Shown piece by piece: positions 12,432 to 29,095 of a stretch of 49,524 nucleotides of DNA. The stretch covers positions 1 through 49,524 of the forward strand of contig CAIZGN010000691.1 in assembly GCA_903932505.1 (NCBI GenBank). Direction: 5' to 3'. The first letter of the stretch is position 1. Every line of letters starts with the position of its first letter. The notes beneath the pieces were generated by a model. It was not told the origin of the DNA and searched no databases. It saw only the letters and a list, made by a program, of their open reading frames with translations. This stretch comes from Candidatus Hydrogenedentota bacterium. GTDB lineage: Bacteria > Hydrogenedentota > Hydrogenedentia > Hydrogenedentales > CAIZGN01. A program made the translations under genes and the position numbers.

Positions 12432-13442
12432 ATGCCGATGACGTCCCGTGAACGGGTATGGAAGACACTTCGGTTTGAGGGTCCGGATCGCGCCCCGCGC
12501 GACCTCTGGGCGCTGGCCGGGGTCACCAATTATCGCAAAGAAGAATATGACGCCCTGCTGCAGAAGTATCCTGGCGATTTCACGGGCCCCCGTTTCAAAT
12601 ACGGAGAGTCGAGTCTGGTGCGGGGCACGGTGGCGGAGGTGGGCACCTATGTGGATGAGTGGGGTTGCGAATGGAGCGTAGCCGAGCCGGGCGTTTGCGG
12701 CGAGGTGAAGAATCCACCTCTGACGGACTGGAGTTCCTTGGGCCACTGGCAACCGCCGTGGGAATTGCTTTCTGGCGCGGATTTCACCGAGGTCAATCCG
12801 AGTTGCGCGGAGACCACCAAGTTTGTGCGCATGGGTTCTTGGGCGCGACCCTTCGAGCGCATGCAGTTCTTGCGCGGCACAGAGAACCTGTTCATGGATC
12901 TCGCCTGGCAACCCAAGGAATTGTTTGAACTGCGGGACATGATTTTCGAATTCGAACTGCGCAACATCATGATGATGGCCAAAACCGATGTCGATGCAAT
13001 AGGTTTCATGGACGACTGGGGTACGCAGCACAATCTCCTCATTTCCCCGCAATTGTGGCGGGAGTTTTACAAGCCGCTGTACCAAGCCTATTGTAACGAG
13101 ATTAAGCGGGCGGGCAAGGCGGTCTTCTTTCATTCCGACGGGCATATCGCCTCTATTATTCCCGACCTCATTGAAATCGGGGTCGACGCCGTGAACACCC
13201 AGATTTTTTGCATGGACATCGAACAATTGGCGAAAGATTTTAAGGGCAAGATCACTTTTTGGGGTGAAATATCCCGCCAAGACACGCTTCCCTTCGGAAC
13301 GGTGCCGGACGTACAGGCGGCCGTTCGCCGGGTTCGTACGGCGCTGGACGACGGGCGGGGTGGGGTGATTGCCCAGTGTGAATGGGGAAATCGGGATCCC
13401 CGGGCGAACATCGAGGCGGTTTTTGAGACTTGGTTGGAATAG
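12432..13442 (+). CDS. Uroporphyrinogen decarboxylase (URO-D)-superfamily protein
   Basis: MPMTSRERVWKTLRFEGPDRAPRD start; AVFFHSDGHIASIIPDLIEIGVDAVNTQ; AGGAGG SD. Confidence 0.8.
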   Translation: MPMTSRERVWKTLRFEGPDRAPRDLWALAGVTNYRKEEYDALLQKYPGDFTGPRFKYGESSLVRGTVAEVGTYVDEWGCEWSVAEPGVCGEVKNPPLTDWSSLGHWQPPWELLSGADFTEVNPSCAETTKFVRMGSWARPFERMQFLRGTENLFMDLAWQPKELFELRDMIFEFELRNIMMMAKTDVDAIGFMDDWGTQHNLLISPQLWREFYKPLYQAYCNEIKRAGKAVFFHSDGHIASIIPDLIEIGVDAVNTQIFCMDIEQLAKDFKGKITFWGEISRQDTLPFGTVPDVQAAVRRVRTALDDGRGGVIAQCEWGNRDPRANIEAVFETWLE

Positions 13443-13487
13443 GGTTACGGGAGACTCATTTCGCGACAAAAAAATCGAAGGAAAGAC

Positions 13488-13516
13488 TTGAATTAGGGCC
13501 AGAAAAAAGGTACAAT
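13488..13516 (+). promoter_or_regulatory. Candidate sigma70 promoter TTGAAT-N17-TACAAT for AdoMetDC leader
   Basis: TTGAAT 13488-13493, 17-nt spacer, TACAAT 13511-13516. Confidence 0.6.
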
Positions 13517-13559
13517 TGTCCGCGTTGTGGTGGGTTCTTAACCGTGGTCAGCCGTCCCC

Positions 13560-13631
13560 AAGCCTCCTCAGAGCTACGCTCCGGGCGTAAGGCGGCTCTA
13601 GGTGCTGTTTATACAGTGCTAGAGGAGGTTT
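13560..13631 (+). ncRNA. Candidate cis-regulatory leader: three-way junction with SD-sequestering closing helix
   Basis: P1 AAGCCUCCUC (13560-13569) with GAGGAGGUUU (13622-13631); P2 AGAGC/GCUCU enclosing UACGC/GCGUA; P3 CUGU/ACAG extended by wobble pairs. Confidence 0.55.
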
Positions 13632-13637
13632 TATGCG

Positions 13638-14033
13638 TTGGAAAAGGGCAGACATCTCTTAGTTGATTGCTGTAACGTTTCTCGCGACCTTTGTCTCGAT
13701 GACAGGAGAGTGTTGAACGCTATGGCCTGCGCCGCCGAAAAGGCGGGCGCCACTGTTGTTTCACAGGTTCGATATAAGTTCGGCCACAATTCCCCCCCCG
13801 GATTCACGGCGGTTGTCCTTTTGGACGAAAGCCACTGCTCGGCACACACGTATGCGGATCTCGGCTTGATTGCTTTGGATGTGTTTACGTGCGGGAGCAC
13901 GGATCCGGCGGATGTGCTCAAGTACCTCCAAGAGGAGTTGGACTTGGGCGACGTCTCGGTGCGGCAGGTACCTCGGTTCACCATGGAATCGATACAGGCG
14001 GCCAAAGACGGACGGATAGCTGTCGCAGTCTAG
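13638..14033 (+). CDS. S-adenosylmethionine decarboxylase proenzyme (prokaryotic class, SpeD/SpeH-like)
   Basis: GRHLLVD N-terminus and DESHCSAHTYADLGLIALDVFTCG (pyruvoyl-forming Ser region). TTG start with GAGGAGG SD at 13622-13628. Confidence 0.88.
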   Translation: MEKGRHLLVDCCNVSRDLCLDDRRVLNAMACAAEKAGATVVSQVRYKFGHNSPPGFTAVVLLDESHCSAHTYADLGLIALDVFTCGSTDPADVLKYLQEELDLGDVSVRQVPRFTMESIQAAKDGRIAVAV

Positions 14034-14049
14034 TTTAGTTCATTGGTTA

Positions 14050-14088
14050 CGGGCACCGCTTGAATATCAGGCGGTGCCCGGTTTTTTT
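14050..14088 (+). terminator. Intrinsic terminator between AdoMetDC and agmatinase genes
   Basis: CGGGCACCGC (14050-14059) / GCGGTGCCCG (14071-14080) perfect 10-bp stem then GTTTTTTT. Confidence 0.9.
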
Positions 14089-14102
14089 AAGGATCCAAAT
14101 CC

Positions 14103-15011
14103 ATGCAGGAATTCATGTCCTCGCTTGACGGTTTTTTGGGAATTCCCGAGGAAGACTCGGTCGCCCCGGATAGCGCACGGTGCGTTTTTCTGCCGGTACC
14201 CTACGAACATACGTCTTCGTACGGGCAGGGTTCGTGCAGGGGCCCGGAAGCCATCCTGGAGGCCTCGCATCAGGTCGAGTTCTTCGATGCAACACTGGGT
14301 TTCGAGCCTCGGGGCTTTTGCGGCGGTCTTGCCACGTTGTTCCCCCTTGAGACGGAGTCGGTGGACGCACCTTCATTGGATGCAAATCTTTGCGGCGAGG
14401 TGGCGTCGTGGCTGGTTCGGGACAAGTTTGTCTTCACGCTGGGTGGCGAGCATTCCTCGGTCACCGGCTCGATACGCGCCCATGTGAAGCATTTCGACGA
14501 GGTCACGGTGCTGCAGCTCGATGCTCACAGTGATTTGCGTGAGGCGTACGAGGACAATCCGTGGAGCCACGCCTGCGCGATGGCGCGGGTGCTCGATTTT
14601 CACGACCGAATGGTGCAGGTCGGTATTCGCAGCCAATGCCGCGAGGAACGCCAACGCTCGGAGTCGCTGGGCATCCCGGTGTTTTATGGCGAAGCCATTC
14701 AGGCGCGCGCGCTGGCTGGTGAGGATTGGGCCGGTGATATCGTGCGTGCCTGCAGCAAGCGGGTGTATATCACCTTGGACTGCGACGTGCTCGAGCCCTT
14801 CTGGATGCCCGCCACGGGCACCCCGGAACCCGGTGGTCTTTCCTGGTTGCAAATCAATGCGCTTCTGCAACGCCTGTGTGCCGAGCGCGAGGTGGTGGGT
14901 TTGGACGTGAACGAGCTGTCGCCCCTGACAGAAATCCACTATCCCCAATATCTCGCCGCGAAACTCATCTACCGTTTTCTGGGTTATCGCTTCGGTCGCA
15001 GCACCACATAA
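14103..15011 (+). CDS. speB: Agmatinase/arginase-family ureohydrolase
   Basis: GGEHSSV, LQLDAHSDLR, TLDCDVLEPFWMPATGTPEPGGLSW ureohydrolase motifs. Confidence 0.88.
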   Translation: MQEFMSSLDGFLGIPEEDSVAPDSARCVFLPVPYEHTSSYGQGSCRGPEAILEASHQVEFFDATLGFEPRGFCGGLATLFPLETESVDAPSLDANLCGEVASWLVRDKFVFTLGGEHSSVTGSIRAHVKHFDEVTVLQLDAHSDLREAYEDNPWSHACAMARVLDFHDRMVQVGIRSQCREERQRSESLGIPVFYGEAIQARALAGEDWAGDIVRACSKRVYITLDCDVLEPFWMPATGTPEPGGLSWLQINALLQRLCAEREVVGLDVNELSPLTEIHYPQYLAAKLIYRFLGYRFGRSTT

Positions 15012-28903: not shown

Positions 28904-28963
28904 CACATACGCTAAGTTGTCAAGACAGATCCAGAGCGTACTTCGTACGCCCGGCCATCCGCT

Positions 28964-29072
28964 TCCTTCTTTCTTCCGGACTGTACCGTCGGCCCCGGAA
29001 TTACACCGGGTCTGCGCCGAAGCGCTCGCGGGCTTTCACCGCCGGTCGGGAATCTCACCCTGCCCTGAAGGT
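28964..29072 (-). ncRNA. FMN riboswitch (RFN element)
   Basis: Minus strand CCTTCAGGGCAGGGTGAGATTCCCGACCGGCGGTGAAAGCCCGCGAGCG...GACCCGGTGTAATTCCGGGGCCGACGGTACAGTCCGG matches the RFN consensus. Confidence 0.97.
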
Positions 29073-29095
29073 TTGCCTCTATGGCATCTGTCCCT

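Follow-up and report, generated by a model that had tools for sequence, protein, structure and literature searches.

The question raised by this locus is whether the leader of a speD homologue is a regulatory RNA and, if so, what it controls and what it might respond to. The initial annotation had read the leader as a cis-regulatory RNA that sequesters the Shine-Dalgarno (SD) sequence of an S-adenosylmethionine decarboxylase (AdoMetDC) gene. Of that proposal the sequestration is supported, in that the SD is predicted to be blocked in one of two mutually exclusive folds; the ligand reasoning attached to it is not. The window, by which we mean the whole stretch of 49,524 nucleotides that was analysed, is from contig C691, part of a 5.86-Mb genome. 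Most of the named organisms with a related speD homologue belong to Candidatus Hydrogenedentota, and the genome is assigned to the phylum on that basis.

Locus, promoter and start codon

The features of the locus are collected in Table 1. The upstream neighbour of the speD homologue is a URO-D/MtaA-like gene that ends at 13442. All sequences quoted in the initial annotation were recovered in place, and the promoter it proposed was confirmed as the only site of its kind in the region searched; the same promoter type precedes the speD homologue in most relatives. Transcription would start at about position 13523, giving a leader of ~110 nt. Downstream, a terminator-like hairpin separates speDA from speB, so that one simple operon may not hold in the window genome. 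Elsewhere in the window there is an ordinary FMN riboswitch (RF00050, 113 bits; 28960-29076, minus strand) upstream of ribD- and ribE-like genes.

Table 1. Positions of the leader elements, genes and flanking signals in the window.
Feature	Position	Strand	Evidence or remark
sigma70-like promoter TTGAAT-N17-TACAAT	13488..13516	+	sole such site in 13440-14110; 0.3 expected (shuffles)
Conserved RNA core (candidate aptamer), AGCCG-U-CC-CCAA-GC ... GC-GUAA-GG-CGGCU	13550..13597	+	pattern and R1 matches
Core stem, 5' strand AGCCG	13550..13554	+	pairs with 13593-13597
CCAA side of the 4x4 internal loop, preceded by CC (paired to GG 13591-13592)	13556..13561	+	invariant in all members
Anti-Shine-Dalgarno strand AAGCCUCCUC, in both core and SD helix	13560..13569	+	duplex with SD strand -17.1 kcal/mol
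GUAA side of internal loop, then GG	13587..13592	+	invariant in all members
Core stem, 3' strand CGGCU	13593..13597	+	partner of 13550-13554
Shine-Dalgarno GAGGAGG and UUU (GAGGAGGUUU strand)	13622..13631	+	blocked in alternative fold
Conserved out-of-frame ATG, 9-codon overlapping ORF MRWKRADIS	13633..13662	+	stop 13660-13662
speD homologue, TTG start, 131 residues, probable SpeDA L-arginine decarboxylase	13638..14033	+	TIGR03330 90 bits, PF02675 93 bits
Strong hairpin resembling an intrinsic terminator	14050..14080	+	14 bp and T run; 0.9 terminator-like sites expected in shuffles
Agmatinase gene speB	14103..15011	+	TIGR01230 196 bits, above cut-off; next step of arginine route

The coding start is the TTG at 13638, a nearer ATG at 13633 being in another frame. 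This out-of-frame ATG is found at exactly -5 relative to the TTG or GTG start in 33 of 37 SpeDA-type loci, opens a 9-codon ORF in 25 of them, and is possibly a decoy start that damps translation. The peptide of the mammalian AdoMetDC upstream ORF is MAGDIS; its likeness to the ADIS end of MRWKRADIS was set aside as a coincidence, a product of the out-of-frame reading of GRHLL.

Identity of the speD homologue

Li et al. (2023; PMC10407285) showed that AdoMetDC homologues have evolved into decarboxylases of arginine (SpeDA) or of ornithine (SpeDC). A proline that is otherwise fixed in AdoMetDC is missing from the SpeDA proteins, and SpeDA/SpeDC-type genes cluster with speB, aguAB or speY in genomes without canonical speA/speC (PMC10407285). 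All 37 homologues compared here have A or S at the position of the HTWPE proline of the T. maritima enzyme, which by our own reading is the diagnostic proline (proline gamma) of that study. The processing residues are kept, as DESHCSAH...FTCG aligns with T. maritima ESHLTIH...FTCG (S63, H68, C83). A second, bona fide SpeD in one genome (G044) retains the HTWPE proline and adjoins a strong SpeE match (208 bits); outside that genome the matches to spermidine synthase (PF01564) were weaker, those in G000 scoring 44 and 39 bits, and many of them fell in long frames.

The surroundings of the gene are also those of SpeDA, with speB and/or speY clustered with it and canonical speA absent (a search of 24 genomes gave none). 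In several other genomes with the conserved core described below, an agmatinase gene lies ~1.5-1.7 kb downstream of the speD homologue, and speY-type genes adjoin the homologue in many relatives, that of the window genome being on another contig. The window gene resembles the SpeDA enzymes of PMC10407285 in its missing proline, its speB/speY clustering and its lack of speA; Hydrogenedentota go unmentioned in that paper, and our assignment is made from sequence. The speD homologue is probably a SpeDA-type pyruvoyl arginine decarboxylase derived from AdoMetDC, rather than an AdoMetDC, and on this evidence the leader would control the entry of arginine into putrescine and homospermidine. Because the gene is probably SpeDA, SAM-type ligands are unlikely, and the rationale that had made SAM, decarboxy-SAM and MTA the natural ligands is lost. 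The assignment would correct an AdoMetDC annotation that otherwise misdirects ligand searches.

A conserved core in the leaders of the gene

Eleven leaders (L001, L011, L012, L016, L017, L019, L020, L021, L022, L025 and L052) have GCCG-N-CCCCAAGC...GCGUAAGGCGG in common, and the near-invariant core of 48-57 nt can be written GCCG-N-CCCCAAGC...GCGUAAGGCGGC. In a pattern search the core was found in 11 of 68 Hydrogenedentota genomes, in one copy each and always immediately before the speD homologue, while there were no matches in 318 genomes outside the order and none to a reversed control pattern in the same 68 genomes. Five pattern matches in viral contigs were taken as chance, none being near speD and none having the flanking GCCG/CGGC stem. 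Collapsing near-identical members leaves, of the 11 leaders, eight sequences that are distinct; they come from five families (f1, f2, f4, f6 and f11), and their flanks and apical loop are divergent. As in a riboswitch, a conserved core is present across divergent leaders at one gene.

A covariance model trained on seven core sequences (R1) recovered the same 11 loci, with E = 3.6e-8 for the window, and recognised two non-training sequences at E ~1e-8. Its twelfth match (L085, E = 0.025) was taken as chance, as it is in a genome without a speD match and near another gene, and the search revealed no second target of the core in any genome. In the protein tree the carriers of the core do not form one clade and five changes are required, with weak support; the core may have had a single origin followed by losses, or repeated origins.

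Searches of the window and of the relatives' leaders with the Rfam covariance models gave no family match, at relaxed thresholds too, in agreement with the initial annotation, which did not recognise the fold as SAM-I to SAM-VI, SAM/SAH, SMK or speF. The best Rfam matches near the leader were at chance level (Hovlinc scored 16.8 bits, its gathering score being 42.3), and RF00162, the SAM-I family that includes the fold of the spermidine variant, had no match in the window or the relatives.

Under constrained folding the core consists of a GCCG/CGGC stem, one bulged base, a CC/GG step, a 4x4 internal loop of CCAA and GUAA, a GC/GC step and, at the tip, a loop whose length varies. The GCCG/CGGC stem is paired in all nine distinct rows of the alignment, with a single change, from G-C to G-U. 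The AGCCG/CGGCU pairing had been suggested as an alternative that would break helix P2; it is the invariant base of the conserved core and not a side alternative. No covariation was detected in the core, seven of the eight pairs never varying across distinct rows, and since the core is near-invariant, covariation cannot test its pairs. The apical hairpin was no more stable than expected from shuffled sequences (Fisher p = 0.14) and was rejected as a conserved stem for want of any excess over them. The case for an RNA structure is built on the conservation of the core, the variable spacing of its two blocks and its coupling to the SD.

Predicted coupling of the core to the Shine-Dalgarno sequence

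The initial annotation had drawn the leader as a closed three-way junction of helices P1, P2 and P3. This is indeed the minimum free energy fold of 13525-13660, but as a conserved architecture it was rejected, for P2 and P3 have no counterpart among the relatives' leaders and are private to the window genome. Moreover, shuffled sequences match this fold in stability (z = -0.51, with 64 of 200 shuffles folding as well), so that fold stability alone is no proof, and this value, ordinary for the composition, was dropped as support for the leader structure. P1, the 10-bp helix of AAGCCUCCUC and GAGGAGGUUU, is upheld by the relatives: the duplex can be drawn in all 11, and SD pairing exceeds that of shuffles in six of eight distinct sequences. 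Covariation in P1-P3, the test that the initial annotation had set for its proposal, is out of reach for the core, which shows too little variation for it.

The anti-SD duplex has an energy of -10 to -17 kcal/mol across the 11 core members, part of which is trivial as any SD can pair with CCUCC. In unconstrained ensembles the partner of the SD is the core's 5' strand or its apical strand, with a probability of 0.55-1.0 in seven of the eight distinct sequences (0.99 in the window and 0.93, 0.55, 0.81, 0.99, 1.0 and 0.99 in the six others). For the window, the probability that the SD is paired to the AAGCCUCCUC side is 0.99 compared with 0.38 in shuffles, and in six of the eight sequences no more than 3% of shuffles attain the SD pairing seen in the natural leader. 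The pairing is within the shuffle range in L019, and in family f6 (L011, L012 and L016) a local SD hairpin is predicted in which the core strand is not the partner.

Enforcing the core increases the accessibility of the SD in the sequences that have pairing between the SD and a core strand, from 0.0 to 0.94 in the window, at a cost of 2-15 kcal/mol by nearest-neighbour energies. Since CAAGCCUCC is common to the core and the anti-SD helix, the two folds are mutually exclusive. As in riboswitches, an expression platform is tied to the core through a shared strand, a tie that is weak in L019 and not predicted in f6. What the computation shows is that the core is conserved and associated with the gene, that the two folds exclude each other and that SD pairing is in excess of shuffles.

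Other leaders of the same gene

In seven members of family f10 (L002, L003, L006, L007, L013, L015 and L018) the gene is preceded by another hairpin, with apical UUUGUGCCGC...GCGGG. Changes on both sides were seen at 7 of its 15 predicted pairs, which makes it a second candidate structured leader of the speD homologue. Further distinct, structured-looking leaders precede the gene in L004, L005, L008, L009, L010, L014, L023, L024, L029, L033 and L038. In the related locus L054, CCGAGCCCCCCGCC...GCCAAAGGCGG ahead of a GTG start is superficially core-like, and R1 does not match it. The idea that the other leader types are diverged copies of the core was rejected, as R1 gave no match to them at E <= 10.

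Discussion

We take the leader to be a conserved cis-regulatory RNA that fits no Rfam family and for which sequestration of the SD is a credible mechanism; the riboswitch-like class to which it belongs is probably new. The reading that we prefer, with modest confidence, is that of a two-state translational ON switch for the probable SpeDA arginine decarboxylase, in which a ligand stabilises the core. In the ON state the core would form and engage CAAGCCUCC, freeing the GGAGG of the SD; in the OFF state CAAGCCUCC would pair with the SD and the UUU that follows it (10 bp in the window) and the core would be dismantled. The near-invariant internal loop is the putative binding site, at which a bound ligand could favour the core and so switch on translation, and the energetic cost of the core might be paid by that ligand, by non-canonical pairs or by co-transcriptional folding. 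The candidate ligands would be L-arginine (as substrate induction) or agmatine first, and putrescine or homospermidine next. Small-molecule binding by the core, the ON direction and the choice of ligand are what we infer, the ON direction being the simplest because the invariant bases are in the SD-free fold. As a less likely possibility we put forward the specific proposal that this is a new riboswitch class, so far of Hydrogenedentota only, in which L-arginine or agmatine turns on the translation of an AdoMetDC-derived arginine decarboxylase.

Possibly, the conserved core is instead recognised by a regulatory protein, which would repress or activate by binding the RNA and might be the enzyme itself, with the blocking of the SD unchanged. 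The core would suit such a role, being a short hairpin whose internal loop is invariant and whose apical loop varies, present once per genome at one target gene. However, no candidate protein was identified, a second target is absent from all the genomes searched with R1, and the two exclusive folds resemble the expression platforms of riboswitches, which leaves the protein reading rather unlikely. It is decidedly unlikely that the leader is a feedback OFF switch in which a polyamine favours the SD-blocked fold, comparable to the control by spermidine through a SAM-I-variant class, which there acts by transcription termination. Polyamine genes are commonly under end-product control. The riboswitch known for spermidine works as an OFF switch (PMC10853860), but here it is the SD-free fold and not the blocked one that holds the invariant bases.

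Another reading makes the conserved blocks a DNA operator, bound by a transcription factor beyond the promoter; they are 26-57 bases past the -10 box where a promoter is convincingly assigned, and they make an inverted repeat. The distance between the half-sites varies, however, which fits an RNA stem better than an operator, and the excess of SD pairing would be left unexplained; we regard this as very improbable. Least probable of all is a temperature- or ion-responsive SD hairpin without a specific ligand since, even with a stable SD helix as the predicted resting state in seven of eight distinct sequences, plain melting would leave unexplained the >20 invariant core bases that are retained across five families.

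The two-state ON switch that we prefer can be compared with several known systems. Some SAM riboswitch classes (SAM-I to SAM-VI, SAM/SAH) regulate translation by occlusion of the SD; they differ from the present leader in that it has no Rfam match at relaxed thresholds and that the window gene is probably not SAM-using. The spermidine riboswitch, a validated SAM-I variant, is likewise a leader RNA at polyamine genes, including speB, speD and speE (PMC10853860). It is a four-stem, transcription-terminating OFF switch, whereas the core described here is small, has one stem interrupted by a 4x4 loop and is coupled to SD pairing. The leader of Salmonella speF, another RNA leader of a gene for a putrescine-forming decarboxylase, is reported to adopt alternative conformations at low and high arginine (PMC6386406). 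The window leader differs in having no Rfam match to any speF-type leader, and no conserved leader peptide was seen upstream of the core element. Searches of open-access literature brought up no riboswitch that responds to homospermidine or belongs to this type of bacterial arginine decarboxylase.

If the core binds a metabolite, it would represent a new riboswitch class on the route from arginine to putrescine to homospermidine, in a phylum represented here by metagenome assemblies alone. In addition, related families have diverse leaders at this one gene, which suggests a repeated gain of RNA-level control.
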